NCBI GenBank assembly: GCA_964036665.1
Contig: OZ038526.1
Span: 7,564,001 to 7,628,000, forward strand
From: Gordius sp. MW1
Taxonomy: Eukaryota; Nematomorpha; Gordioida; Gordea; Gordiidae
Direction of reading: 5' to 3'
DNA length: 64,000 nucleotides
In this document: positions 1 through 55,780 of the stretch, one piece after another
Numbering within the stretch: position 1 is the first letter of the stretch
Layout: each line of letters opens with the position of its first letter
The notes under the pieces: generated by a model
Database searches by the model: none
What the model was told of the DNA's origin: nothing
The model's input: only the letters and a program-made list of their open reading frames with translations
Position numbers and translations under genes: made by a program

Positions 1-461
1 ACTAGAATCTTTAAAAAATCTCAAAAAATTATAGACATATCTTACTTTCTTGATTTTCTATGGGTGTAGAGATATTTTCTATAACCATAACACATGTTGT
101 TTTTTCATTCAAAGCTAAATTTGTATTAAAAAACTTTTAAGTTTCTTACTTTGGAGATTTTGTTCTTGTATACAATTTTGGGAATGTTCTGATGTTATAA
201 AATTATTATATCTAAGGACAGCTCTTCCTCATTTACATATACTGTAGTGCCTGCACTTATAGTATACTTGTCCCATCTTACCTGCTCTCTTGATATAGTC
301 AAACTTTTTGAAAGTGACTATATAATTTTTTATATTAGATCTTTTAAAACCTATAACAATATGTGTATACTTGCATAATAAAGCTTACTTATATTCTCTT
401 TGTTATCTTGATTTGCAATAGTTAAAGAGTTTTCCAAATTTCCCATATGTTTTTTTTTCAA

Positions 462-2205
462 AGATGAAGTTAGTTTATTGATATATATCTAAATAGTATT
501 AAATGATACAATTATATAATAATTATATTTAAAAAAACATCATATGAGTAATATGTCTTCATCTTCCTCTTTTAGAAGAGGCCAGGAATCCAAAAAAGAT
601 TTGAAATTAAATTTTGCAATTAAGATAGCTATTGATTGTTTCAATAAAAATGCGGGGGAATGTTTGGAGGGAGGGGATCAGCCTATTTCTTTGAATAAAG
701 CCAACGCCATTTTTCCATAGGATTCTGCACAGGAGGAAACTATTGGGATAAAAATACTAGAGTCCAAAAGGGCCTTGTAATTTTGGAGCTTGCGTTCTTC
801 AGCGAGGGCCATGGGGTCATAATTAAGATTAGAGGGGGCACAGAGGTCTATGCCTGAATCCCACTTTAAAAAGAGACCATTTTCCCATGGGACTAACGAG
901 GAACCGTCAGGACGCATTCGACCTTCAAGGGCAGGATCTGAAGGTTCAAGTATGGAGGGAATGTGGGCCTTTCTAAGGGCTGACTGGATAATAGAACTAA
1001 TTTAAGAGTGTCGCAAGTGTCTAATTTTATTTAGTCTGCAGTGTAACGGGTGGCGTGCTTCTTCATCCACTGGCAGGTTGCAATTTTTACATGCATATGC
1101 CTTGGTGTATTTTATTCCAAGGCGTAGTGCTCTATTTTAGGATAGCTCGCAATCCTCTAACATCATATTGGAGAACCTTCTAGGATTCGCCTCTAGCCAT
1201 TCATGTCCAGATTTATCAAACACCAAAGATCTAAGGTTGTAATGTTGTTTGGTATCGCAGCTCGAAAGGAGATAAGCAACGGAGCGTGAATCCAAACATG
1301 CATCCCAATCCTTTTGATTTGGTGTTTGTGGTGGTGAGCTTTCTGGTAGAACATTTAAATTCAAAAGGGATAGGGCCTGTATAAATGTTTCATCGAGGGA
1401 GTATGAGATTAGTTTGGCGACGATGGATTTTGAGGATAAGTGGGAGGATATAAATGAGGCCGATAAGGAGCTTGGTGAACAAATTCCGACCCCCAGATTT
1501 TGTTGGTAATGTGGCTTGTAGCCAAGTGTTAGTATCGAATGATAAGTTCAGAGTGGCTTCGATGACAGATTTTATGTGGGTTTCGAAATTATGTAAAATA
1601 TGTGTATTAAAAAATGCGCTTGTGGATCGGAAGCAAAATAATATTTTGGCTATATTAAAGTAGTTTTTCAATATGTAAAATGCGTGATGGGCGGGCATAA
1701 GCTTAAAAATTTCATTTTTACATTTTAAATTTTTAAGGTTATCGTCGAGATAACTTCTTAAGCACTCAGGACCGCCTATTGGAGAACCTAGTAAAAATAC
1801 CTCGTCCTTCTCAAGGCGTAGAAAAGATGCAAAGGCCGGGTGGATGTCAGTTGTGCTGTCAGAATAAATTTCGCATTTTGTCGCGCTTAAAGATAGGTTA
1901 AGTTTTATGTAGTATTCAATAATGATGTTAAGTGCTTTGATTAGCTCTTCCGTGGTGCCTGATAGAGTGGCATCGTCGAGATACCATACGTTTAATTTTA
2001 AACTGCATTTTTCGTTGATTTGATCTATTAATGGTTTGATGGCCATACAAAATAAGGGGGGGGGCCAAGGGGGTCCCCCTGTTGAATGCCCTTCGCTAAA
2101 TCAATTAAATAATGCCCGAATTTTAGGCTAGAGGGTGTCCCATAACTTAAAAGGGTATAATTAGCATATTTAGGATAAGTCTCGATAAAAGAATCTTTTC
2201 GGGAT
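462..2205 (-). pseudogene. Non-LTR-like reverse transcriptase element, copy A (5'-truncated, broken)
   Basis: Reading on the minus strand, a reverse transcriptase can be followed from about 2200. A segment with the motif GIQQGDPLGP lies near 2100-2060, then LFCMAIKPLID from about 2055, then the catalytic box VWYLDDATLSG in the open stretch 2046-1390, and LLGSPIGG. The reading frame is broken by a C/G homopolymer at about 2056-2064 and again near 1390 and 1137-917. The C-terminal part (917-678) carries RPDGSSLVPW followed by WD, which resembles the PDG...WD arrangement of a restriction-like (PD-(D/E)XK) nuclease; that assignment is inference. The 3' end near 462 runs into an A-rich tail, as expected of target-primed retrotransposition. 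No terminal repeats are seen. A near-identical inverted copy lies at 15917-17262. Confidence 0.8.
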
Positions 2206-14298: not shown

Positions 14299-15161
14299 CT
14301 TGTAATTTTCTGATAGAATGGAGTACTTATTCGAAATAGTATTAAAATAATAAAAACCGCGAGGAAATTTAAAGCGATGAACACAATCTAGGCGTAAATT
14401 TTTAATTAAAGAATTTTTTTTTTAAAAAGTAACTGTAACTTTAGTTGAATAGTTACTGAATTAATGTAACTGTAATCAGTTACAGTTCCGATTCTGAAGA
14501 AAAGGAACAAGTTGGAGGAACTAGTTACATATAACTAGTTACTAAACAGCTCTAAGAAATACTCATTAAAAATTTCATAATATGGGCATTAGTAAATTGT
14601 TTCGTTTTCAAGCTAAATTTTAATCATTGTTTGACTTCAAATTAATATTTATGACGTTAAGTAAAAAAATTTGCAGTTACACTAAACATGAGCTAGTTTA
14701 ATCACAACTAAATTTGCCAAATTCAAGCAAGACCCCCCTTAGAAATTGTGTTGACTTTTCCTTGTTAACTCCAATTCTCTTCGTTCTTTTAGCCATAAAT
14801 TAATTGTTAATTTGTGTATTTAAAGGCACGTCATAAAAATCCACAAGATAAAGAAAGATCTATGTAAATATAGAGACAAATGGAAACAAATGCTGAAAGG
14901 ACTGACCACTAGCCTAGGTGACAGACAAACAGTCATAGAAAGAAGAAGAAGAAAATATATTTAAGATTAATAGAGAATAAGAAAGCTAATAAAGTAATTA
15001 ATAAGTTTAAAAAATCGTTTTAATATACTTTTATTTTGAGAATCACTAAATTATATAGAACGCAGTTCGCTACAAAGTATAATGCAGCGTATGTCTTCAA
15101 CCTGAATATAATAGACTTTTTTGAAGATAAAATCACTTGAAAATTAGAACAAACATATCTT
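14299..15161. other. Intergenic, nothing recognised
   Basis: AT-rich sequence with palindromic TAACTGTAAC/GTTACAGTTA strings near 14430-14490. No gene supported. Confidence 0.35.
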
Positions 15162-15419
15162 ATAATAATCAGAAGATAATAATAACCCCTTTCAGGAGTG
15201 CCCTAGAAAATTAACTATGGCATACTGATGAGCTCTAATAAGAGCGAAAACGTTATATGTTTGTTATCATTTTTAAGTCACATGCTAAAAAAGATAGGGA
15301 TATATATAGTTCAATTTAGTCTCTAATTAAAATCGCCGATAGATGGCGCTAATTAGGGTAAACCTTTAAGTTAATTGCGGCACTCCTGAAAGGGGTTATT
15401 ATTATCTTCTTATTATTAT
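15162..15419. mobile_element. Inverted-repeat element carrying a hammerhead ribozyme
   Basis: The 41-base arms 15162-15202 and 15379-15419 are inverted complements at 40 positions; both contain AACCCCTTTCAGGAGTGCC. The 176-base centre holds the hammerhead motif (15219-15261) and, nearer the right arm, CGATAGATGGCGCTAATTAG. No protein-coding capacity. Confidence 0.75.
15219..15261 (+). ncRNA. Type I hammerhead self-cleaving ribozyme motif
   Basis: The conserved core CUGAUGA lies at 15225-15231 and GAAA at 15246-15249. Stem II is GCUCU (15232-15236) with AGAGC (15241-15245), perfect, closed by an AAUA loop. Stem III is the minimal palindrome AAC/GUU at 15249-15254. U16.1 is 15254 and H17 is A at 15255, so cleavage is predicted after 15255. 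Stem I pairs GGCAUA (15219-15224) with UAUGUU (15256-15261), including two G-U pairs. A very short stem III is known in type I hammerheads of Penelope-like elements and animal retrozymes, where dimers are the active form. Activity has not been shown. Confidence 0.85.
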
Positions 15420-15916
15420 CGAAAAACCCGCAATTCATTTACTTATTTCTAATATAATATCTTATAGTATTGTTTTGTTATTGTGGTATATCAATTTATA
15501 TTGATTTATTCTAAACTTCCCCCCCCCCGCTTACTTGGTGCAAAGTTGTTTATTCTCCCCCCACACACCTATACTATACGCTATGATTATACCCCACACA
15601 CACGATATATTAATTTTTACGCGTAACGATAATTTTACATTTACCACTCGCTTTTATTGCCATCGCGATCGCGGATATATATTATTATCATTCTTCTACT
15701 TTTTGGTTGTTGGTAATAAATAAATAAAATTCAGAATGTAAGGAGTACGAAAAATAAAACTGATTGATATTCGCGGTAGTTCTAGAAAATAAGTAGATTT
15801 AGCTCGAAATTAAATTAATATATTTCTTTTATCATATACTAATATAATAGTTATCTTATTAATAAATTGGATGCGAGTTCCAATTTGTGAAGTTAAAAAT
15901 AGAAATACCAATAAAG
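15420..15916. other. Intergenic, nothing recognised
   Basis: AT-rich DNA with a C tract near 15521-15529 and short CA-rich patches (15560-15605). The open stretch 15535-15723 is attributed to chance. Confidence 0.35.
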
Positions 15917-17262
15917 TTACCCATTTTACTAGGTTATCCAATAGGCGGGCCTGAATGCTTAAGAAGTTATCTCGACGATAACCTTAAAAATGAAATTTTT
16001 AAGCTTATGCCCGCCCATCACGCACTTTACATATTGAAAAACTACTTTAATATAGCCAAATTATTGTTTTGCTTCCGATCCACAAGCGCATTTTTGCATA
16101 CACATATTTTACAGAATTTCGAAACCCACATAAAATCTGTCATCGAATCCACCCTGAACTTATCATTCGATACTAACACCTGGCTACAAGCCACATTACC
16201 AACAAAATCTGGGGGTATGGGAATTCGTTCACCAAGCTCCTTATCCTTGGCCTCATTTATATCCTCCCACTTATCCTCAAAATCCATCGTCGCCAAACTA
16301 ATCTCATACTCACTCGATGAAACATTTATACAGGCCCTATCCCTTTGGAATTTAAATGTTCTACCAGAAAGCCCACCACCACAAACACCAAATCAAAAGG
16401 ATTGGGATGCATGTTTGGTTTCGCGCTCCGTTGCTTATCTTCTTTCGAGCTGCGATACCAAACAACATTACAACCTTTGATCTTTGGTGTTCGATAAATC
16501 TGGACATGAATGGCTAGAGGCGTATCCTAGCAAGTTCTCCAATATGATGTTAGAGGATTGCGAGCTATCCTACAATATAGCACTACGCCTTGGAATAAAA
16601 TACACCAAGGCATATGCCTATAAAAATTGCAACCTGCCAGTGGATGAAGAAGCACGCCACCCGTTACACTGCAGACTAAATAAATTTAGACACTTGCGAC
16701 ACTCTAAAATCAATTCTATTATCCAGTCAGCCCTTAGAAAGGCCCATATTCCCTCCATACTTGAACCTTCAGATCCTGCCCTTGAAGGTCGAATGCGTCC
16801 TGACGGTTCCTCGTTAGTCCCATGGGAAAATGGTCTCTTTTTAAAGTGGGATTTTACATGCATAGACCTATTTGCCCCCTCTAATCTTAATTATGACCCC
16901 ATGGCCCTCGCTGAATTACGCAAGCTCCAAAATTACAAGGCCCTTTTGGCCTCTAGTATTTTTATCCCAATAGTTTCCTCCTGTGCAGGATCCTATGGAA
17001 AAATGGCGTTGGCTTTATTCAAAGAAATAGGCTGATCCCCTCCCTCCAAACATTCCCCCGCATTTTTATTGAAACAATCAATAGCTATCTTAATTGTAAA
17101 ATTTAATTTAAAATCTTTTTTGGATTCCTGGCCTCTTCTAAAAGAGGAAGATGAAGACATATTACTCATATAATGTTTTTTTAAATATAATTATTCTATA
17201 ATTGTATCATTTAATATTATGTTTAGATATATATCAAAAAAACTAACTTCATCTTTAAAAAA
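15917..17262 (+). pseudogene. Reverse transcriptase element, copy B (5'-truncated, one nonsense change)
   Basis: Homologous to copy A (462-2205) but starting later, at the TTTTACTAGGTT segment just downstream of the catalytic box, so it lacks the YLDD motif. One frame runs 15914-17035, interrupted only by a TGA at about 16480 where copy A has AGA in the string HYNL(R)SLVFDKSGHEW. The C-terminal region has RPDGSSLVPWENGLFLKWDF, with the PDG and WD residues of a possible restriction-like nuclease, and ends FKEIG. The 3' end (about 17262) is followed by A-rich and TA-repeat sequence. The good preservation suggests a fairly recent insertion. Confidence 0.82.
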
Positions 17263-21952: not shown

Positions 21953-23846
21953 ACTCGGGCCTTCGGCCCTCGTGGGAAGGGGGAGAAGGGAAGGGGAGTA
22001 GGGGAAGGGAAGAGGGGAAGGGGGAACTCTTCTATACTCCGTATAAACGTAGCATATTTGCTATGCAATTTATGGGCGAGAAAGGTGGGAAGGGGCGAGA
22101 ATGCCTATAGGGGGTATTAGATGCAAAATAATTAGTTAATTAGTTATAGGCCCTTGTAGGGGAGGACATAGGGTAATTATCAATGTTAACCAATTCAAAA
22201 ACGAAAAAAAATTTCGATTTATTTGGCCAATGGTTATTTTTTTATTGGTCAGTAGCCAGCGGACGGTCAAAAATTCATATTATCATTGGTATTAACATGA
22301 ACAAATATTAATTTAATTTAAAAAAATTTGAAAAAAAAATTGTCCCCTCCCTGACTTGAACCCCACACCTCCAGTTCACAAGCCGGCGCTATAACCACTA
22401 TACCATGCTGGCTTTAAAATAGGAGAAGTTATTATGTTATTTATATAGATAATGAAATAATAAAGTTGTGTTTTATGTTTAGAAAATCAATATATTTCGT
22501 CGGTCAGTAGCCAGCGGACGGTCAAAAAGTCATATTATCAATGTTATTAACAAAAACAAAATATTAATTTAATGTAAAAAAAAATTTAAAAAAAAAGTTT
22601 TTTTTTAGTTTTAAAAAAGGGCTAAATTCTTAAACTACCAGCCCGATTCGCTCGAAACTTTACCCGTAGGTGCCCAGGGCGGCCGGGGGTAAAATAACCT
22701 TTTCAGATTCCTAAAATACCTTTTCATTTTAAAAATATCGGACATTTCCCTGACACACGTGCGGTGTAATATCTATGACACGTACAAAAATTTTACTAAT
22801 TATATAAACTTACGCGCGCCATCTAATAAAGTACAATTCGTGTTTGAGTTTAATAGTAGATTCAATTTAATTAGAAATAACGGGCTATGATTATACCTTT
22901 GAAGGAGGTTTCGAATTTTGTGTTAGTTTCTATCGATATATTTTATCGTAAATTAGAATCTAATACCTATATTATTTTTTTAAATATTACTTTTTAGGTT
23001 TTCTATGAAATCACAATCTAATTAAATGAAATATATTAACCCAATAAAAAAAATATATGCATTTATAAGGTTAAAAATATATATTACATAGTTGGCTGTC
23101 TGTTAGACCATCTATAATAAATTTTTAGGTTATATATAAAATTTGGCCAATGGTCATTTTTTTTCATTGGTAAGCAGCCAGGACACGGTAAAAGTGGATA
23201 TAAATTCATAAGTCAAAAAAAACGAAAAAAAAAATTTTCGAATCACATTTTGGCCAATGGTCATTTTTTTCCATTGGTCAGCAGCCAGGACACGGTAAAA
23301 GTGGATATAAACTTATAATAAAAAAACTAAAAAAAATTTTCAAATCACATTTTGGCCAATGGTCATTTTTTTCCATTGGTCAGCAGCCAGGACACGGTAA
23401 AAGTGGATATAAATTCATAATAGTCAAAAAAAAACTAAAAAAAAATTTTCGAATTACATTTTGGCCAATGGTCATTTTTTTCCATTGGTCAGCAGCCAGG
23501 ACACGGTAAAAGTGGATATAAATTCATAATAGTCAAAAAAAACAAAAACAAAAAATTCGAATCACATTTTGGCCAAAGTGTGATTTTTTTCCATTGGTCA
23601 GCAGCCAACGGACGGTCAAAAAGGCATAATAGCAATGGTAGTAATAGGAACAATCATAATAGTCAAAAAAAAACGAAAAAATAAACTCGGATTCACATTT
23701 TGGCCAATGGTCGTTTTTTTCATTGGTCAGCAGCCAGCGGACGGCCAAAAAGTCTTATTATCAATGATAGTAACAAGAACAATCATAAGAGTCAAAAAAA
23801 ACTCCGGGATTCTAACCCCAAAACTAGTTAAATTGCATAGCAATTA
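21953..23846 (+). repeat. Tandem-repeat cassette with hairpin terminus, copy 1
   Basis: Opens with ACTCGGGCCTTCGGCCCTCG (a GGGCC-TTC-GGCCC hairpin), then an AAGGGGAGAAGGG purine tract and TTTGCTATGCAATTTATGGG. Tandem units of about 100-130 bases follow, each with TTTTGGCCAATGGTCATTTT, CCATTGGTCAGCAGCCAG and a CGGACGG or ACACGG string (clear units from 23142 to about 23790). CCAATGG and CCATTGG in each unit can pair. It ends ATTGCATAGCAATTA, a 5-bp stem-loop. The matching full cassette is 45882-47031. Confidence 0.75.
22341..22412 (-). pseudogene. tRNA-like sequence (His-like anticodon loop), degenerate
   Basis: Read on the minus strand it has an A-box-like GGTATAGTGGTTA, an anticodon-arm-like CCGGCTTGTGAACTGG (GTG, histidine) and a B-box GGTTCAAGT. 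The acceptor stem does not pair, so this is a tRNA-derived relic inside the tandem cassette rather than a working tRNA gene. Confidence 0.5.
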
Positions 23847-31789: not shown

Positions 31790-34700
31790 CTATATATAAA
31801 TGGAATGTATATTAACTTTTATTTTAAATAATTTAATAAATGAAAAAACTAACTTCTAGGGCAAGTAGTCATTATACTAGTTATTCCATACAGACGTCCA
31901 TTACCACCTAATGCTGGATTTAGGGGAGAATTCATAAGTCCCCTTTGCTTTTCCGCACTCATTATTTCAGACCTAAAAACATCAATAATGACTTCAAGCC
32001 CGGAAACTATATAAATTTCTAAGTAGCAATTAATGTTGTTAAAAGGGCTGGGTTTTGTTTGGTCGACAGTCCACTAAAACTAAAGATCAACCAAACAAAA
32101 CCCAGCCCTTTTGATAACTCTAGTAGCAATCATACGTTGCCTTTTTAAAATATCTTGTAAAAAAGAAAATGTGTAAATTTTTGTTGAAAATTGAAAAATT
32201 AAAAGGTCAAACCTTTTCCAATCAGTCCAATAAAAGTTAGAATCAGTTTGAGTTAATCCGAAGGGGTAAGTCAAGTTAGAAACCAGAATTCTTCTAGCGT
32301 TGTTATGTACATTCATGCATTCTAATCTTTTGGTACCTTAAAAATATTAATTATAAAATTAAATTAATGATAATTAGTTAAAAAGGTTAGTTTGTGTAAA
32401 AGTGTTGGACCTGCGTCGACCCAGCACAGATCACGTGAATAATCTTCGAAGATTAGACTGTTTGGTAGTTTGATGTCACGTGATACCAGGATTTTTCTAT
32501 CGCTCCCATCCATCATACTACTCTCGATTTTGGGAACGTCTCTACTCCAATCACTCCAATAAACCCTCCTAACATTTATTTACAAAATTATTTAACTTTA
32601 AAAAATTATATAAAATAAATAAAAAATGAAAGGACATTTTGAATATTTTATTGACCTTCGGCAGCCTTACTATACAAATACAACGTACTTTCCAGTATAT
32701 AATAGTATTGTAAAAAGGGGTGGGTTTTGTTTGGTCAACCTTTGGTTTTAGTCGACTAAACATAAGCGAATCCAAGGTTTTTGGTCTAATTTTCTTAATC
32801 GACCCCCAGGCTGTCAAAATTTACAGACTAGAGTTTACCTTAATTAAATCAAAGGCCGACCAAACAAAATTCAACCATTTTTAAAACACTAGCCTACTAT
32901 ATACACATTTAGATTTAAGTTTAATGATGATACATTTTTATTGCAAAACTATGGAAAAATGGCAACTTTGTTTATAAAATCTCTACTAAAACCCGAATAT
33001 TATTTTTGGCTAAGACTATTTATTTCCTAAGGGTTTAAATTGAAAATAAAGTTGTAAGAATTTATTTTTTTTATAAGTTTTTATACCCTTCTCTCCAATC
33101 AATGGCTATTCCTCTGGGATTGATTAAATTTTGATCGACGACAATCCTTCTATGCTTCCCATCTAAACTAGCCATCTCCAAACTTCTTTTCTCCGAATCA
33201 GTCCAAAATATATTTCGACTGGCCCAATCGATCGCTAATAATTCTGGTGTTTTGATACCTTAAATCATCGCCATTTTGAAATTAACAACTTTAGAGTATA
33301 AATATTAATATTATGAAACACGTCTACAAGATAAAAAGTCAACAAAAATTTAATAATTTGAAGAATTGAGAGCTTAATAGTAAGAATGCAAAATGTTAAA
33401 CATAAAAGTTAAGTTGGTTGTCTTCAATCTTCAAGGTAATTATTATAATTATTTAAATCTTTGTAGTATTATACAGTTTAAATAACTAATTATGAAATAT
33501 ATAAAAAAAACTCTGAGTTTAATGTTTGGAAAACATTCCGATGTAGCAAGTGAATTATAAAAAACCAGTTTTTGGGAATCTAAATTATTAAAAAATTAGG
33601 AAAAGAATATGTAAACTCAAAAATTTGATTAAAAATTCGCGTTATAAAAAAGTCAAAATTTGCACTTTACTATAGTTTTTAATACTAAATACGTATTACC
33701 ATATCAACAATTCAAAAATTAAAACTATATAACTAGATTTCTTTTGGTTCTGACGATATAAACTCACTAAATACTTTACCGACAAATTTATTTAAAAAAC
33801 GTTTAAAATTACTAAATTAATCTAAAACATTGAATTCTTTAAATTCACTCTTTTTAGATTATGTATAAACTTTATTTATAAAAACACTAAATCCTAGAGT
33901 ATAAACTTATGTTAGCAATTGCCAAAATCCTTTCAGAATTCAGTATTGTATAGCTGTGCAAATTCAAATGTATCTAAATTTTTACTAATTAAAAGAGAAC
34001 TCTAAGATAAATATCTAACCTAGTTCCAAAAAAGTGTCAATCCTAGTTGCATCATGATTGGATTTCTTAATTTTTCTGCCCGATACATCTGTCCAATATA
34101 TATCACCGGTCAAACAGTCAGAGCCCACGCCCACAGCAATTTGAGATTGATCGCTGGATAAATAATGACCCATATGTTCTAATCCTTCTTTGTCCACTTC
34201 TTCAGGACTATCTTGTCTTTTTCTACTGCCTCCTCTAACACTTGCAGAAGGGGGGAATATAGAAACTGGGATTTGCATTATTGAACTGCCTTGCGCGTAG
34301 ATTAATCCCATGGTTAACGGATTGACCGCTATATCAAGAATTAGCTTTACGAAATAGTTGCATATTTATACAAGTTATTATTTGATATATTAAATACGTC
34401 TATCTTATAAAGAAACAACTATTAGGCTATACACTAGTGTTGTAAGAACGCGGCTGGGGTTTCCTTTGGTCGACCTTTGAATTTAGTCACCTAAACTTAA
34501 AGAGACCAATGGTTAGGTCTGTTTATCGTAGTGGACCTTTAGGCTTAGTCGAATTTTGAAAAGCAGTCCAGGAAGGACCGTTAGTTTTAGTAAAACCAAT
34601 GATCGACCAAACAAAACCCAAGCGTTTTTACGACACTACTACACACTTTATTTAGAGCGAATTATTAAGTAGCAGGCGCGTAGCCAGGATTTTCTCTGGG

Positions 34701-37700
34701 GGGGGGAAATTATAAATTTTTTTTGTAACATTATTTAAAAAAACAAAATAAACATTTGATATTTTTTTTTCGGGGGCGTCTGGCTACGCCACTGTTAAGT
34801 AGGCACATGTAGACTGTGACTTGTTAAGATTACTTTTATAACACTACCAAAAAAGTGCAAAATTAAATGTTTTTTCCAACACAAAATTAAAGAGGAATCA
34901 AATAATTCCATTTAAATGTTTGTTTAAATCATAATAACAAATATGTTATGAATTAAAAAGATAAAAAAAATTAAAATATGATGTTTTTAATCACCTTGGC
35001 AATGCCGACTTCCATCTCCTATGAAACCGTAATTGCATTTACATTTGAAATCTGCGGGCCCATCCCCAAATTGAACGCATTTAGCTTCTCGGTGACAAAT
35101 AGATGGAGTACTGGCACATGAAGATTCTAAATTTTCCCATAAAAAGTTTAAAATAATTTTTAGGATATACAATAAAAATTTGAAATTTTATATTAAGCAT
35201 TCCTAATTGTGTTTTCCTAATAAATTATTTCTACAAAAATATATGAGGTCCATCAGCCAGGATGCCTATATATTGAGCGTGAGTAGATAAAAATATGTGT
35301 TATGCTTTGAAAATAACTTCTATTTAAGTAGTTTAAAATGCCTTTTATGATAGTAATTAGCGCATAAATAGCTCTCGTGCTAAAATGAGTTAATGACAAA
35401 CAGACTTTATATAGTCTAAGTATTTTTACTCTAATATAGCTTTTGGTTTTTCCTATTACATAAAAGTTCAAAATGATCATGATTTTAAAAAATCCTCTCT
35501 AAAGACTGAAAATGATATCAAATAAGTAAATGGAGTGGTCATTGGGATTAGAGTGGGACAAAATAAATATTTTTTTAAATTTTAGCCATAAATTTCAACA
35601 AATTTTTGGATTTAGAGGGGGGGCTGCCCCCCCCTTGGCTATTTACTAATGGATTTGACACAAGTGTTGCCAGATGCAGTGTAACCAGGATGACAATTGC
35701 AATAATGTCTATGCTTGATGGAATCGTATAAACAAGATCCAGCTTCTGGATTTCCACAAATGGAAGGATCATATTTGCAACTTTTATCGAATAGACAACT
35801 ACTAATTCCATCTCCGTAGTATCCAGGATTGCATAGGCATTCGTACCCATTCGTCCTCGTATCGTATGTGCATTGTGCTTTGTGGTGACAAAAATTGCTC
35901 ACGCTACAATCTGTATGTATATAACAACATTAGTTACATTATTCATTATTGTAATATTATTTTAAAATTTCCCAAAGCGTTTACGTTATCTCATGAGTAT
36001 AAAGTAGGCTAAATTTCTAATTTTTTTCATAAAAAAATACATATTTTTTGAAGGCGAGATGAATAAATAAAAAAAAGGTAAAGAATTATAAATATTCGGA
36101 AAACATTCGGCTATGGCTAATGAATTATAATTACAGATAGTTATGGTTGTGATGGAAAAACGGCTCGGTTTTGATTAGTTGGTCTTTGGTTTTAATAGAC
36201 TAAACATAAAACAAACCAAGATTTTTTGGTCTTTTTTTCTTGTCGACCACTAGGCTTAGTCGAAATTTGAAAAACAGACCAGAATAGACCGTAAATCTTA
36301 GTTAAATCAAAGGTCGACCACAAAACGCGGCCGTTTTAACAACACTATCGAGGGCTAGGGTCTGTTGAAGGTAACAAATTTCTCAGAATAAGTGTGATAT
36401 TCATTGACTAACCAAATCTCATATACCTAATTTTTGTCACATAAAAACGAATAATTTTGGCATTTTTATCATCTAAAATTAAAGAAGGGCTTAGTACCAG
36501 AAGAAAAAATCATTTAGTTATAGATATTGTTTTTCTATTTGTCCCCCTTGCCCCCCCCCCCCAAAAAAAAAAAAATTTTTTACCCCCTTAATCCTATAAA
36601 TTTCAATACGACCCTTCCCGAAATGTGAAATTTATATTCTAATAATCGTGAAAATAATCCAAAATTAATATTTTTTAGTTATTAATACCTCCTTTAGAGC
36701 TCTCATCCATAGTTGTGCATGTGATTCCATCTCCAAAATAACCAGTTAAACATCTGCAGGAATGCTTAGATTGCCCAACATTCCAAAAACATTCTGCATT
36801 TACATTACAAAAGTTCGGGATTTTTGAACAGTCCATTTGATCCAAGGATTCACTTTCCACTATCGAGATCGGAGTTGTCATTTTGCTAGTCATATCTGTA
36901 GACAATTTTAATAAGTAAGATATAACGAAAATTATTATTAATTGCTATGTGCAATTTATGAGCTCGCTTTTAATTGTCCGTCCGTCCTGTCCTGTCCAAC
37001 TTGTAATTTTACAATAATTGCCGTGGAAACTTATAAGGGTTTTTAATGGCTGTGGACTTATGCTTCAGTGAAAGACTTTTATTTTGCTTACACAAATAGA
37101 CTAGCTTACCGCTGGTTGGGTTTACTTTTTTCGACCTCGCCCGAGCTCAATATCCATTATTGTTTATGGACCCGACTGATTACATTTATACATAAATCTC
37201 TTTGGGCAACTTATCTAGATTTTTGCTATAGATTTTTTTATAAGTTTTAGTATGACCTAACCCTTTATAATTTGCAATTATAATATATTTCTTTATTTCG
37301 ATTTATTTATTAAAAGTTATAAATATTCCAAAAATAGACACAGTATATAAAAGCTTATATTTATATCCTCGAGAAGGGTACAGCTATCGGTCAGGGATTT
37401 GAAATTGTATTCAGCAATAAAGGTGCCAATTTTTTATTTAATAAAATATTAACATTAGTTTTTCTTAATTTTTGTTGGCAAGTAAAGGTTCTGTTTAATT
37501 TAGTTGTTGTTAGGTCTACGCCCCGAAATAAAATTTTTATAAAATTCCGATAGACTAAGCTTGTGCTAATAATTAAAAAGAGTAGTCAGAAATGTCATTA
37601 ATTAAAAAAGCACACCAAATACATAATTAAAGTCCCTTAGCATTAGGTTTTGTGATAAATAAATTATAAAATTATAAATTTTACAATATGGGTGGATTAA

Positions 37701-43700: not shown

Positions 43701-46700
43701 CATAAATTGCATATATATCAATTATCAAAAGGAGATATCTTCAAAAACGCTATCAGGAGATAATTATTTATAATTTTATGAATGTAAAATACAAAAATAG
43801 CAATTGACCAGCATTTTGGTCTCGGGCCGGGTTCAGATAAATTAGATTTAAGCAACGGTCAGCATTAATTTCCAGTGAATTATTTAGTCAGTTTCGCGAA
43901 TATATATATATAAGGCAACAACCTAGATAAATTGTCAATAATGTGAAGGGCAGTAAAAAACAAAAATGAAATTTGAGCTAGGGCGAGGTCGAAAAAATCA
44001 AAGCGGTTATTAGCTAGTCTATATGCGAAAGCAAAATTCAGAAGTATACAGCCATTAAAAACCCCCTTTAAGTTTCCACGGGAATTATTGAAAAAATAAC
44101 AAGTTGGACAGGACGGACAGACAAATTAAATAATATACCGGTCAATATGAACCCATTAGATACGTTGGGTGCGTTATTTGCAAATAACCAATTGATGGAT
44201 TCTGTTAGAGGCAATAGTAGTTTCATGCCGTGACTAATCGTTCCAGGAATTTGACTCAACGCAGTGTAAATCCGTCCATCTACAGTTACTATATAAGCTT
44301 GAAGTTCTACGCCCGTTAAAGCTTGTCCATTTATAATACCGTTTAATCTACCATTTATCCTTTGCGGACTATCTGTCAATAAATTATAAAGCAAAAATTG
44401 GTTATAAGATCCTATAAATTTTAAAATAAAATCAAAATCCTAAAAATTTTAAAAGTAAAAATATTAAAGGTCTAATGGTATCATTGTTTTTGGATTAGGG
44501 AGTCTGATTAGGACGAAATAAAATAGTTAGAAAATATAAAAGATTTTTGATATTTTTTTGAATATAGACCCCTGTGGGTGGATCATTTCAATTTTAAATC
44601 ATATATACTATCCACATGGGCATAGCCAGGATTGGATTTAGAGGGGGGCAATAATGATTTAGGGAGGGGCAAAATGATCATTTTTTGAAATTTTAGCCAT
44701 ATTTTAATAAATTTTAACAAATTTTTGGATTTAGAGGGGGGTAGGGGGTAGCCGGCCCTCCCTCCCCCCCCCCCCCCCTTGGCTAAGCTCATGACTATCC
44801 AGTCTCTTTCAAAAAATATAATATTGCAACCAATTTCGTGGAACAAGTTTTATTGTTTAAATATCTAACGATCTTTGGAATTAGATATTCACTTTAGTCA
44901 ACCTTATGATTAAGTTTGAAAGTAAAAAAAACATATTAAATATTAATTTTGCTGATATATTGAAAAATAAAATTTACTTTAAAAGGTATATACAAATTAT
45001 AATTTATAAAAAGTCTTTATCATTTATTGTAGTTAAATCAAACTTTTCCTTACTCTGAATGAGACAATTAATTCCATTTCCATAAAATCCTGAATTGCAG
45101 GCACAACAAAATCCCGCGCTGTAATTCTGGCATTTCGCGTTATTCGGACAGGAATATTCATCGCACACATTTTGAAATTCATCGCCCACACTTTTACCAC
45201 CTATTTCATGGATAAAAAACAAATTTTGAGCCTGAGCCCGGTCCTAATTTTTTTTTATTTAAAGTACTGGGCCCGGGCCTGGCCTTAGAAAAATGGATTT
45301 CGCAGACCTATAATTGTGTGGTGCACCTAGTGTTGTAAAAACGGCTCTTTGTTTGATCAACCTTTGACTTTAGTCGATAAAACATAAACAGGTTAAAGAG
45401 GTCGACTAAACAAAACCCAGCCATTTTTAAAACACTATGTGCACCAAAGTTCCAAAGCATGAGGTGAAAACATTGTTTCTGTTTTAAATTTTATAATTTT
45501 ACACATATATAAATCAGATTTCCTCTTCAAAAATGCATTTTTCCGCCATTTTGAAATGGCAGGGAAGGACATATAGATTAAAGTGTTTTTAAAGCGTAAA
45601 TATGAAATATCTCTGAAATAATTGGCAAACATTTTGGTAATGAAAACTTTAATTTAGTATCAAAATTACATTGTACCATAGTGGGGTGGAGAATGCATAG
45701 GGAATGGTTCTTCTACGTTCCTCACGAATCCCACGTGATAAATCCAAACTCCTGGAATTCCAACATTAGATCGCCTCCAAAATATCACCAAAACAAAAAC
45801 AACAATATTACGAATAGTCGACAGTAAAAAGAGTTGAGGCTAGAGTTTTCTGAAATTAAAACTCAAAAGTTTAGTAAAAAAAACTCGGGCCTTCGGCCCT
45901 CGTGGGAAGGGGGAGAAGGGAAGGGAAGAGGGGAAGGGAAGGTGGGACGACTCATCTGTACTTCGTATAAATGTATCAGATTTGCTATGCAATTTATGGG
46001 CGAGAAAGGTGGGAAGGGGCGAGAATGCCTATAGGGGGGTATTAAATGCCTAATGATTAATTAATTATTTATACAAATTTTCCATTTATAGGCAAAATGT
46101 AATATAGGCAAAATGTAATATAGGCAAGGGTTAGGGTTAGATTTAGTGTTTGCATCTAGTTGCGTATTACATTAGTTTTTATGGCCTTTAGTGATTATGG
46201 GTCTAACAAACATTATATTATAAAACATCACAATGTTAAGAATTTGCAGAATTGTTGGGAGAAATTTTTTGTTGAATTTGAACAATTTTTAATTAAAAAA
46301 ATCAAAAATTTGGCCAATGGTCATCTTTTCTCTATTGGTCAGTACCAACATATACTCTATAAGTCAATGATAGCCAAAAAAACGGAAAAAAAAATTTTGA
46401 TGCTCACTTTGGCCAATGGTCATTTTTTTCCATTGGTCAGCAGCCAGCACACGGTAAAAGTGGATAAAAATTCATAAGAGTAAAAAAAACGAAAAAAAAA
46501 TTTTCGAATCACATTTTGGCCAATGGTCATTTTTTTCCATTGGTCAGCAGCCAGGACACGGTAAAAGTGGATATAAATTCATAATAGTCAAAAAAAAAAC
46601 GAAAAAAAAGTTTTCGAATCACATTTTGGCCAATGGTCATTTTATTCCATTGGTCAGCAGCCAGCGGACGGCCAAAAAGTCATAATAGCAATGGTAGGAA

Positions 46701-49700
46701 CAGGAACAATCATAATAGTCGAAAAAAACGAAAAAAATAATTTCGATTCACATTTTGGCCAATAGTCATTTTTTCCATCGGTCAGGAGCCAGCGGACGGC
46801 CAAAAAGTCATAATAGCAATGGTAGTAACAGGAACAATCATAATAGTCAAAAAAAACGAAAAAATAAATTCGGATTCACATTTTGGCCAATGGTCATTTT
46901 TTTCATTGGTCAGCAGCCAGCGGACGGCCAAAAAGTCTTATTATCAATGATAGTGACAAGAACAATCATAAGAGTCAAAAAAACTCCGGGATTCTAACCC
47001 AAAAACTAGTTAAATTGCATAGCAATTAAAAGTAAACAACTTTTATTTATGTTTATTATATAATAAATAGAAACAATAATAGAACAAGCGGACGGCCAAA
47101 AAGTCATATTATCAATGGTAGTAACAGGAAAAATATATTAATTTAATTTAAAAAATAAGAAAAAATTTTGCCCTCTCCGGGAATCGAACCAGCAATTCAG
47201 AACGTTCGCCGGGGTTCGAACCCACATTAATAGAGGCATAGGCTTTTGTAGGGGTACAGGGACCCATATCAGTAGAGGCATAGGCCCTTGTAGTGGAGGG
47301 CATAGGGTAATTATAGCCATTAATATCAATGTTACCCAATTCAAAAACGAATAGATATACTTATGCATTAATTTAACGTAGCAATTAAAACCCGACCCCG
47401 CCCGAAAGCGAGGGAGATAGAGATGAGGGGTAAGGCACCTCTTATGCATTAATTTAAATAACACAGCGAGGGAGATAGAGATGAGGGGTGGGGCACCTCT
47501 TTCTCAAGCATTAATTTAAAAAATCGATAACCTAATATACCCAATGCAAATAGATAGGGAGGGTAACGGACAACGGACAACCAAAAACGAGCCCATAAAT
47601 TGCATAGCAATTAATATTTAATTTGGGTTGTGTTACTAAATCAATCTTTCCTCAATCTATTCAATATGGTAAAGATGCTAATAAAAACACATTTTGGAGT
47701 GAGATATGAGTATTAAAATATCGAGGAACGATTAGGCTAGAAAAATTATTTAAAAATCACCTATTTTTGTTTGATGGGGGAAAATTTTTAAAATAATTGT
47801 AATTATACTTTGAAAGTGATAAGACTTTGTAATTTTTAGTTTTGGGTAGGTTGAAAGTTCTAAATCCATCGCCCGAATCAAATCCGACCTGTTATGCCAT
47901 ATATAAATTTTGATGAATTCGCTTAATAAATTTATAATACCCATAGACTGCCGAACAGCTGTTTTTACTATTAAAATCATTCAGACAACATTATAACTGC
48001 CTTCTTGAAGGAAAAACTCAACCACAGGTAAATTATACCTCTCCACCCTATGAAATCTAAGAAAATAAATAAGACTATTTTAGCTTAATTTAAAAATTAA
48101 AAAAACGTAAGTAAAATGGAACGATAATTTATGTTGACTTCTTTACAATTTCCCACAAAATGGCGGTTTCTATATTTCCTAAAAAATTATCAGCTGTTTG
48201 ACAGTCTATGGTTTCATTAGTTTATGATAATACCTGAACACGAACGGGTGGCAAATTGGCTGTCCTCGTCCTCGCCCTGGTGGTGTACCAATTGAGTGCA
48301 TTTCGGGGATACAAAAATATAATGTAAGTTCTTTCATCATCACTGGCTATTATGGCTTGAAAAGTGTTATTCTAAAATATTTATATTTTATTTTGGTTTT
48401 AAATAAAAAAAACATAAATAATCGTTGAAATATTTTAAATTTTTTAACTTGAGGTGTATCTTGTAGATAGCCTTTAACATTTTCCCATGTCGCGGCGAAA
48501 ATGTATTTAGTTGTGAAATTGTCGGCGTCGATCGCTACGTTTTGAACGAGCAAATCGTTTATTTTATTCACAGCTGATTTATCCACATGTTTTCTGACAA
48601 AAGAAATGCAAAAAAGTTTTAAATACAAAACAAAAAATATTCTATATATATTTTATTCTTTTAACTAACAAATTCATTGTTCTTACTAGTTTATGATGCC
48701 AAAATAATAATTTTCAATCAAAATTGTCAATTTTTTTGTGTAAATTTATGAAACAAAATATATATGAACAAAAGCTTGATTTAAATTAGTTAATGGTATA
48801 GTAGTCTACCCATAATATATGGCTCCACCCTGGGTCAAATCTATGTCAGAATAATAAGGAGCTATTATAGGATAACCAATTGGAAATTCTTTATTAACGT
48901 AAGATGGGATTTCGGTTAGGAAGGAAATAATTCCGTTAGAGTTCACCTTAAAAGAAGTACGATTAGAAATTGCGATAATAAAGTAAATTTTATTTTTTTT
49001 TTATCTAAATAGGTTTTAATTAAAATAATACTATTTAAAATTTGGCTTAAAATGGAGTTCAAGATCTCTGTCTTTTTAATCACCAATATTTTAAATATTT
49101 GCATAGAGTGTAAGACACATTTAACAATTAAGTTAATAAAAACGCTTTGCTTACCCTATTTACAATTTCTGATGGTAAAAATATCAAGATAATTGAAATG
49201 AAAATTCAGCAAAACGTATTTATAATTGCATTTTTAATATAATTTGACATAAGATAAATAAATTTTAACCGATTCCGGAATTTAAGAATATAATTTATAA
49301 AATTGACGCAACATTAAAATTAATAAATCGTCTGAATTTCACAATTATTTATATAAATTTAAATTGTATGTACCTTAACCGTTAAAAATAGTTATATTCT
49401 TTTTGGGTTTATATTGGTATTCCCAAAATTTTTTACAAAATCCCAAGGTAAACTGTCTCTATTTGATCCCCAATCATGGGCGTACGCGAGGGGGAGGGGG
49501 GGGGGGGGGGGGTAGGGGGGGGGACGGCTGTTTTTTTTGTCATAAAAATGTCGAGACTAGGGCTGCATCAATATCAAATTTTCAACCGATACCGATACTA
49601 CCGATATTTAAATAAATATACCGATACCGATATTTTACATCTTATAAAAATTAGACTTGTTAGTTAATATTTATAAAGCTTTATTTAAAATATTCCAAAA

Positions 49701-54539: not shown

Positions 54540-55780
54540 ACGTAATCACTACTTATTATTAGCTCACTTTCCATTTGTTTACTGTCACGCTCGGAATGTC
54601 TTGTCTTGCACCGAATGTCACGCACCGAATGTCTTGTCACCTTTCTCCTTTTTTTCGTCGTGTTTACCACTGAGCGCTCTGAATTCGAATAAACCATCCT
54701 GTGTACGATACCCTGTGCCCCCCTACAAAGGGCTATGCCTTTACTGATGCGGGTTTGAATATCGACGAGGGCAATTTTTTTATTTATTTTTTTAATTAAT
54801 ATATTGTTTTTGTTAATACCATTGATAATATGGCATTTTGGCCGTCCGCTGGCTGCTAACCAATGAAAAAAATGACCATTGGCCAAATTGTGAATCGAAT
54901 TTTTTTCTTCTTCTAATTTTTAATTGCTCTTTGTCTAACATTGATAATTACCCTGTGCCCCCCCCCCTACAAGAGCCTATGCCTCTGCTGATATGGGTCC
55001 GCCCCCCCCCCCCTACAAAGGCCTATGCCCCTACTGATGTGTCGAATCCCGGGGAGGCCAAATTTTTTTTATTTTTTTTTTAATTCATATTGTTTTTGTT
55101 AATACCATGGATAATATGACTTTTTGGCCGTCCGCTGGCTGCTAACCAATGAAAAAAATGACCATTGGCCAAAGTGTGAATCGAAATTTGTTTTTTCGTT
55201 TTTTTTGACTCTTACTTATGTATTTATATCCACTTTTACCGTGTCCTGGCTGCTAACCAATGAAAAAAAATGACCATTGGCCAAAGTGTGAATCGAAGTT
55301 TTTTTTTGTTTTTTGACTCTTATGTATTTATAGACCATCTCTTGGTACTGACCAATGGAAAAAAATGACCATTGGCCAAAGTGTGAATCGAAATTTTTTT
55401 TCGTTTTTTTTTGACTCGTCTGTATTTATAGATCATCTCTTAGTACTGACCAATGAAAAAAATGACCATTGGCCAAAGTGTGGTTAAAAAATTTTCAATG
55501 ACATTTTGAGATGCGCGGTCGTAACAGGCAATAGCGGAGCTATTGCATATCGCTGCTCATTTTATTGTCGTAAGCCTATTATTAATTTTTTGAGCAACTG
55601 TACCCTGTGCCCCTCAACAAAGGCCTATGCCTCTACTAATATAGGGTCGAATCTTGGCCAAGTTTTTTTATTAACCTAACACTGATTGTTCTTGTTAATA
55701 ACATTGATGATATAGACTTTTTGGCCGTCCGCTGGCTATTTTAGAATATTATTGATTTTTTCTAGATATATGAGAAAGAT
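54540..55780 (-). repeat. Tandem-repeat cassette, inverted orientation, degraded
   Basis: Units read TGACCATTGGCCAAAGTGTG preceded by GCTGCTAACCAATGAAAAAA, at about 54836, 55130, 55250, 55340 and 55445, the complement of the cassettes at 21953 and 45882. GCCTATGCCTCTACTGAT and TCGAATCCCGGGGAGGCC strings (tRNA T-arm-like) recur between them. Neither end of the cassette is clear. Confidence 0.65.

Follow-up and report, generated by a model that had tools for sequence, protein, structure and literature searches.

A Hammerhead Ribozyme Repeat of Gordius sp. with the Insertion Anatomy of Penelope-Like Elements and Its Probable Mobilisation in Trans

The window analysed here, a stretch of 64,000 nucleotides from contig OZ038526.1 of Gordius sp. 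MW1, includes a 347-aa open reading frame with an EME1/MUS81 C-terminal domain (PF21292; 5037-6080, minus strand), whose sole protein-search match was to Gordionus sp. at 40% identity. Two short frames on the minus strand (34015-34311 and 35575-35850) resemble, by eye, YWTD and EGF-like exons of a large extracellular protein. Tandem repeats at 23142-23801, 46376-46983 and 55244-55482 consist of related units of about 95-129 bp (TTTGGCCAATGGTCATTTTTTTCCATTGGTCAGCAGCC...), seen by eye in both orientations, and represent a candidate satellite. Broken copies of one reverse transcriptase (RT)-bearing element, alike at 94% over 1.36 kb, occupy 15887-17035 (plus strand) and 1390-2046 (minus strand), the RVT_1 match being weak and confined to the latter frame. 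Among the fetched sequences the RT of 15887-17035 recurs only at window 445-1796 and at two further, separate loci, one (L008/L063) matching at 96% and the other (L009/L040/L051) at 77%. The insertion described below lies at 15155-15466, and no open reading frame of 90 aa or more overlaps this interval in the window.

On the plus strand of the insertion, positions 15219-15261 form a type I hammerhead ribozyme motif with a minimal palindromic stem III, identified from the window sequence, Rfam comparison and genome counts. Stem I (15219-15224 with 15256-15261) has six pairs, two of which are G-U. It encloses the core CUGAUGA (15225-15231), stem II (GCUCU at 15232-15236 with AGAGC at 15241-15245, loop AAUA at 15237-15240), GAA (15246-15248) followed by A15.1 at 15249, and the palindrome AACGUU (15249-15254), which sequence and energies suggest is able to pair as helix III with a second ribozyme copy. 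A17 is located at 15255, and cleavage is predicted after it. The succession CUGANGA...GAAA...UH over 15225-15255, with cleavage after H17 and an open helix I, is that of the type I class. Every core part of the complete type I hammerhead named by the initial annotation is present, and the predicted cleavage position that it had given, after 15255, was derived again from the core layout.

Within a single molecule, stem III can consist at most of the pair A15.1-U16.1 closing an ACGU tetraloop; three helix III pairs need a second copy, because a 3-bp stem III has no loop. The computed active pairing amounted to -19.1 kcal/mol for the double hammerhead compared with -2.2 kcal/mol for each monomer with its one helix III pair, and the modelling upholds the earlier proposal that the minimal stem III favours dimers. 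Since the palindrome AACGUU is the sole possible helix III, the dimer is the likely active form. The minimum-energy folds (monomer -10.1, dimer -24.2 kcal/mol) do not coincide exactly with the active pairing in either case. The minimal hammerheads of Penelope-like elements (PLEs) reportedly cleave as dimers, a result said to come from Lunse et al. 2017 and Cervera and de la Pena 2014. As far as these accounts go, the present ribozyme resembles them in its type I topology, its tiny helix III and the expected activity of the dimer, and differs in being placed in a non-coding unit.

The relaxed pattern CTGATGAN{4,30}CGAAA matched once in the window, where 0.11 matches were expected, and was present in 11 of 100 shuffles; the pattern in the window alone is weak evidence and not decisive. 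The Rfam scan of the window gave no match at any gathering score. The best match, obtained with a 901-base stretch, was to Hammerhead_HH9 (RF02275) with 25.5 bits and an E value of 6.8e-4, the gathering score being 52. The initial annotation had named two outcomes that together would speak against the ribozyme, namely no covariance-model match above threshold and no cleavage of a dimeric transcript, and the first of them is what was found. Four copies in L027 and L010 scored 24.8-27.5 bits, and such sub-threshold scores probably arise because the models expect a longer helix III.

In the 211.8-Mb genome (12 contigs) the 35-nt ribozyme gave 462 matches with up to three mismatches, and the reversed control gave none. 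Three blocks of 35-37 nt beside the ribozyme gave 85, 137 and 109 matches, so that, of these four blocks, the ribozyme has been kept most widely, these pattern counts being the whole basis for conservation across subfamilies. The fetched copies were found to be tandem, inverted or single fragments of a non-coding unit of about 368 nt, and tandem units of approximately 368-375 nt, as in retrozymes, occur in L010, L027 and the array L067. The latter (C1:7848000-7857900) represents a subfamily with units of about 375 nt and contains 25 units or part-units in 9.9 kb, 16 of them full; its monomer and the reference unit align at 86% over a length of 172 nt. The reference unit is one real copy, L027:872-1239, whose rotation was chosen to place the common 3' end at position 368.

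The comparison of the ribozyme core with the downstream part of the unit gave no signal of ribozyme conservation in young copies. In 37 copies chosen by whole-element similarity the differences were 5.2% in the core and 4.9% downstream, and within the C1 array (16 units) they were 4.2% and 2.3%, the ribozyme there being less well kept. A further 13 copies showed 0% in the core and 8.9% downstream because they had been selected by the ribozyme pattern. Post-insertion decay would yield such a result, and these data give no support for present selection on single copies.

The insertion in the window is bounded by the 10-bp direct repeat ATATCTTATA (15155-15164 and 15457-15466), a target-site duplication that overlaps each element end by 3 nt. 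It is composed of two arms placed head to head. The inverted arm (15162-15202, minus strand) begins at a site designated A (unit about 325-328), comprises 41 nt with 98% complementarity to 15379-15419, and corresponds to unit 289-328 on the minus strand. The main arm (15203-15459, plus strand) is a 5'-truncated copy of the 368-nt unit (unit 112-368, 93% identity) that ends at a second site, B. On the plus strand of the main arm, site A falls at about 15416-15419 and site B at about 15456-15459, and in other copies the corresponding ends cluster at unit 320-332 and 356-368. The stretch of about 40 nt between the two sites (15416-15459, plus strand), delimited by the outer ends of the inverted and main arms, has the form of the PLE-type 'tail'. 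RNA folding predicted a stem-loop at 15373-15435 (plus strand), with the core stem AATTGCGG (15373-15380) and CCGCAATT (15428-15435) and a loop that would hold site A; the z score of -2.5 against 200 mononucleotide shuffles refers to the same stretch in the unit copy L027 and not to the window copy.

The insertion ends were compared in 61 groups with no shared flanks, 39 of them from loci chosen by whole-element DNA similarity (L001-L028 and L037-L066) and 22 from loci chosen by ribozyme pattern (L029-L036 and L068-L086), which come from about 100 listed places of the 462. The arrays L067, L030 and L068, groups near locus ends and duplicate loci were removed beforehand. Inverted arms were present in 23 groups and absent from 38; adjacent same-strand pieces were present in 27 and a single piece in 23, these classes overlapping. 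From 83 outer 3'-type ends, 22 were located at A (unit 320-332), 35 at B (unit 356-368) and 26 elsewhere, which places 57 of the 83 at two sites 40 nt apart, as in the PLE tail. Some of the copies with off-site ends are old or truncated, which may account for these ends. The two clusters are not a product of the rotation, because both recur with the unrotated unit: among 96 matched pieces, 24 end at 243-251 (equivalent to B) and 18 at 203-207 (equivalent to A), while 39 reach the query's own end and 15 stop elsewhere.

The 23 head-to-head inverted groups comprised 15 with the ends A/B, one A/A, no B/B, three B/other, one A/other and three other/other. The window copy is one of the 15, with A on the left and B on the right (15459); 12 of the 15 came from whole-element-similarity loci and three from ribozyme-pattern loci. 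With A and B drawn independently and with equal chances, at least 15 unlike pairs in 16 would have a probability of 2.6e-4 (own arithmetic). The duplications flanking the 15 A/B insertions measured 10, 13, 15, 14, 12, 6, 15, 12, 12, 7, 8, 7, 12, 14 and 12 bp (range 6-15 bp), and reached 10 bp or more in 11 of 15 cases compared with 1 of 210 when the left flank of one insertion was matched with the right flank of another. The eight remaining inverted groups had duplications of 13 bp (two) or 4-7 bp (six). Of the 37 linear groups with a 3'-type end, 21 ended at A or B and two had a duplication of 9 bp or more. Tandem and inverted copies with target-site duplications, an arrangement characteristic of PLEs, are found among the 61 groups.

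Taken from the window alone, the 41-bp inverted arms resemble terminal inverted repeats, as though the insertion were a foldback, MITE-like DNA transposon that contains a hammerhead by chance. This reading is extremely improbable and was dropped because arms and duplications differ between copies: the shortest arms have about 40 nt and the longest exceed one unit, each end is a different sequence end, the duplication lengths vary, and most groups, as counted above, have no inverted arm. The fixed terminal repeats and fixed duplication of the MITE/TIR class were not found in these copies.

Twin priming yields inverted 5' parts and duplications of similar size, and it should leave one end fixed and an internal point that varies. 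If the insertions were made by LINE machinery, the inverted arms would be ordinary twin-priming products. Such an origin is nevertheless very unlikely, given that 15 of the 23 inverted groups have one of two fixed sites, 40 nt apart, as the outer end of one flank and the second site as that of the other, that most printed flanks show by eye no poly-A tract after the ends, and that a resident PLE family, B, has a like two-site pattern.

Two further features of the insertions were observed. The arm 5' ends gather near unit 81-84 and 110-116 (6 of 85 arms in each of the bins 81-90 and 111-120; L001, L008, L028, L033, L034, L058, L064 and L066), and could reflect, upstream of the ribozyme, either the start of transcription or a strong stop. 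The insertions of L014 and L018, at different places, have the common target AACTAGTT with mutually reverse complementary duplications, and that of L028 adjoins ACTAGTTCAAGTTC; a preferred target repeat is possible on the basis of these sequences.

In the accessible part of the study of an anole PLE (PMC11167929), reverse transcription is described as starting at two adjacent internal sites, and the intervening tail is called unique to PLEs. The two-site ends and duplications of the ribozyme unit correspond, as judged from the sequences, to this signature. The same source states that both target strands are cut and extended, predicts a PLE dimer, and reports start sites alike on top and bottom strands, a result compatible with the A/B coupling seen here but no demonstration of it; hammerhead mutants are reported to have no effect on insertion in vitro (PMC11167929). 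For rotifer Penelope the available text of PMC3846280 describes a 31-bp tail that one pLTR of an inverted pair can carry, duplications of 8, 9 and 10 bp with none in one described insertion, and pLTRs that suffice for integration in trans. According to these partial accounts (PMC11167929; PMC3846280), PLEs share with the ribozyme unit the tandem and inverted copies, a tail of 30-40 nt, the duplications and a hammerhead placed upstream of internal start sites.

The genome contains 147 GIY-YIG matches at E <=1, seven of them marked below the curated cut-off, with tandem PLEs among them. At L088 (C8:28243000-28249000) two intact-looking 854-aa frames follow each other with a period of 2957 bp, and the GIY-YIG table places PLE copies in both orientations side by side in this region. 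For PLE family B a 331-nt query across the start gave 45 rows, drawn from the best 40 of 444 candidates scored: 28 end at 176-192, 12 at 145-151, four are full length and one ends otherwise, the end modes being 33 nt apart. Four of five opposite-strand pairs within 1 kb were A/B when counted by hand. At the level of sequence this shows in PLE family B two-site ends and inverted pairs like those of the ribozyme unit. In PLE family A the best 40 of 771 candidates had mostly one end cluster, near 166, and not two.

The predicted folds are also comparable. In the window copy, in PLE B and in the unit copy L027, the folding leaves site A unpaired within a predicted stem-loop and puts site B 3' of it. 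The distance from the stem to site B is 16 nt in PLE B; in the window copy it is 21 nt when measured from the core stem, and with the longer stems predicted for L027 and the window copy it comes to about 7 to 14 nt. PLE families A, B and C all show a hairpin at their start codon, with GAAAUAU following it. A first hammerhead motif scan of the PLE starts, which disallowed an extra U, found none; this U was seen by eye in the start-codon hairpins of the PLEs of this genome, whereas stem II of the ribozyme unit joins the core without it. The 5-bp hairpin scan gave start-codon hairpins in PLE B, PLE C and the ribozyme unit. The hairpin of PLE A, with a 4-bp stem by eye, is outside the list of that scan, and the energy fold pairs the stretch somewhat differently. 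In PLE A the core reads CUGAAGA and the cut is predicted after frame nucleotide 25 by our own count, compared with the cut at 26 reported in the accessible text for the anole PLE (PMC11167929). In an Rfam search at E <=1 neither L090 (PLE B) nor L094 (PLE A) gave a hammerhead, and Rfam recognised none in L088; the start-codon hammerheads of these PLEs are therefore motif readings.

A direct link between the unit and a partner PLE was sought in several ways. No PLE with the ribozyme unit as its own pLTR was found in the sampled PLE families of the genome, and when the sampled PLE 5' regions were compared with the unit by blastn, the matches were short (30 nt or less), the long match of PLE family D being the neighbouring insertion itself. 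The unit is to be distinguished from PLEs by the absence of an RT/GIY-YIG frame as well as by the lack of any match above 30 nt to the sampled 5' regions. Its derivation from a resident PLE by internal deletion was rejected, because the 5' regions sampled from families A, B and C matched it over short lengths only. The window insertion contains no open reading frame with RT and GIY-YIG. The RT remains at 15887-17035 were likewise rejected as a partner: the GIY-YIG table has no place in the window, the duplication of the element precedes the remains, and among the fetched sequences their RT recurs only at the few places given above.

These results bear on the view that the copies are debris of an autonomous PLE, that is, solo or tandem pLTRs whose ORF-bearing copies are extinct or unsampled, a view that has the PLE mobilisation step in common with the one preferred here. 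The succession of ribozyme and start sites is that of a PLE pLTR and ORF start, an ATG is located within the CUGAUGA of the hammerhead just as the PLE start codons of this genome coincide with a hammerhead-like hairpin, and solo pLTRs are described for PLEs in the available part of PMC3846280. On the other hand, no attached PLE ORF was noticed in the 9.9-kb subfamily array of 25 units or in the other fetched copies, and the frame that follows the ATG is short and, by eye, different in the array monomer. Moreover, of 96 places (84 ribozyme-pattern places listed and 12 unit places) a single one has a GIY-YIG match less than 5 kb away, and the copy there carries its own 13-bp duplication. A debris origin is accordingly considered rather unlikely.

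The preferred reading, which we hold to be highly probable on the sequence evidence, is that of a non-autonomous, retrozyme-like ribozyme element, with a unit of about 368 nt and a subfamily of about 375 nt, that is mobilised in trans by a PLE enzyme. The enzyme must come in trans because the unit has no long ORF, and internal initiation at two sites, coupled on opposite strands, indicates that the machinery is PLE-like. The initial annotation had recognised the ribozyme type, the dimer preference and a mobile, non-coding element with kinship to the retrozymes of animals and the hammerheads of PLEs, all of which stand; it overlooked the unit of about 368 nt with the insertion anatomy of PLEs.

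The arms contain information about the RNA template. The predicted cleavage site is crossed without interruption in 62 of 85 insertion arms, none of the 85 ends within 3 nt of the cut, and 23 of 85 exceed one unit. For the 62 crossing arms the template was therefore not a linear monomer cut at the ribozyme, and would have consisted of circles or uncut multimers. A more specific version of the preferred reading, in which the template is a ribozyme-made circular RNA and not the multimeric transcript of an array, has a fair amount in its favour and is still judged somewhat more likely to be wrong than right. The crossing arms and those longer than one unit agree with it, as does the sharing of rare variants, which amounted to 0.65 per 100 nt within insertions (32 pairs) compared with 0.11 between them (2564 pairs). 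Unshared differences within insertions, however, were 5.6 per 100 nt, near the 7.0 found between insertions (32 and 2564 pairs), and in L027 two of three units have common variants that are absent from the third, which fits an array template. In the accessible part of the in vitro study of the anole PLE, the dominant substrate was unprocessed RNA (PMC11167929).

Among known systems, the animal non-LTR retrozymes (Cervera and de la Pena 2020, PMC7229834) are comparable in being, as the accessible text describes them, non-coding AT-rich repeats of 170-400 nt in tandem copies, with a type I hammerhead, duplications longer than 4 bp and a genome that also contains PLEs. The two-site PLE tail and the head-to-head inverted pairs distinguish the present unit from that description (PMC7229834). 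The helix III is minimal and nearest to the newt/axolotl Amex1 type, one pair with a palindromic tetraloop, in the same partial source (PMC7229834). The SMalpha and W-elements of Schistosoma (PMC8490949) are also non-coding repeats with type I hammerheads and suspected mobility; the part of that report available to us mentions one possible duplication and makes no mention of PLE-type ends. Assignment to the plant LTR retrozymes, with a type III hammerhead in LTRs, PBS, PPT and a 4-bp duplication, was rejected in view of the type I topology and the 10-bp duplication found here. PLEs have been put forward as a strong candidate for the mobilisation of animal retrozymes from common hammerheads, tandem copies and coexistence (PMC7229834), PLEs or LINEs have been proposed as mobilisers from shared features and coexistence (PMC7229834, PMC7761336, PMC11722881), and retrozymes have been suggested to be reduced PLEs (PMC11722881), as stated in the accessible portions of these papers. 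What is new here is the insertion anatomy, a PLE tail on a retrozyme-like hammerhead repeat; no report of such a tail on a retrozyme was found among the titles and abstract openings retrieved, preprints and most subscription papers being outside that scope.

From the ribozyme motif, the unit, its tandem and inverted arrangements, the paired end sites, the duplications and the likeness to a resident PLE family, we infer the following course of events, in which transcription, cleavage and mobilisation in trans by a PLE protein are putative steps. The unit or a tandem array would be transcribed, and the hammerheads, mostly paired through AACGUU/AACGUU, may cut the multimers to monomers or circles. 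The PLE protein would bind the RNA 3' of the ribozyme, and the nicked target would prime reverse transcription internally, either at A in the loop of the stem-loop or at B 3' of it. Where both target strands serve as primers, usually one would do so at A and the other at B, and the joining of the cDNAs head to head would give an inverted insertion with a target-site duplication of 6-15 bp.

It is tempting to speculate that this holds for the whole class, that is, that animal hammerhead retrozymes parasitise PLE enzymes and that both target strands are primed together at A and B; this extension is tentative, and the balance of our judgement is against it. The near-strict A/B rule (a single A/A and no B/B next to the 15 A/B insertions, and four of five pairs in PLE B) suggests that both strands are primed together, for example if a PLE dimer held one ribozyme RNA and each of its protomers primed one strand. 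If this is true, integration would involve two strands and two sites, with a ribozyme circle or multimer as the minimal substrate. To our knowledge such a mechanism is not known from other retrotransposons.

If the assignment to PLE machinery is right, insertion anatomy at the nucleotide level would point to the class of enzyme that moves ribozyme repeats, and the unit of about 368 nt would be a candidate substrate for PLE biochemistry. The test of insertion ends, which needs a genome only, could then be applied to every known animal retrozyme.
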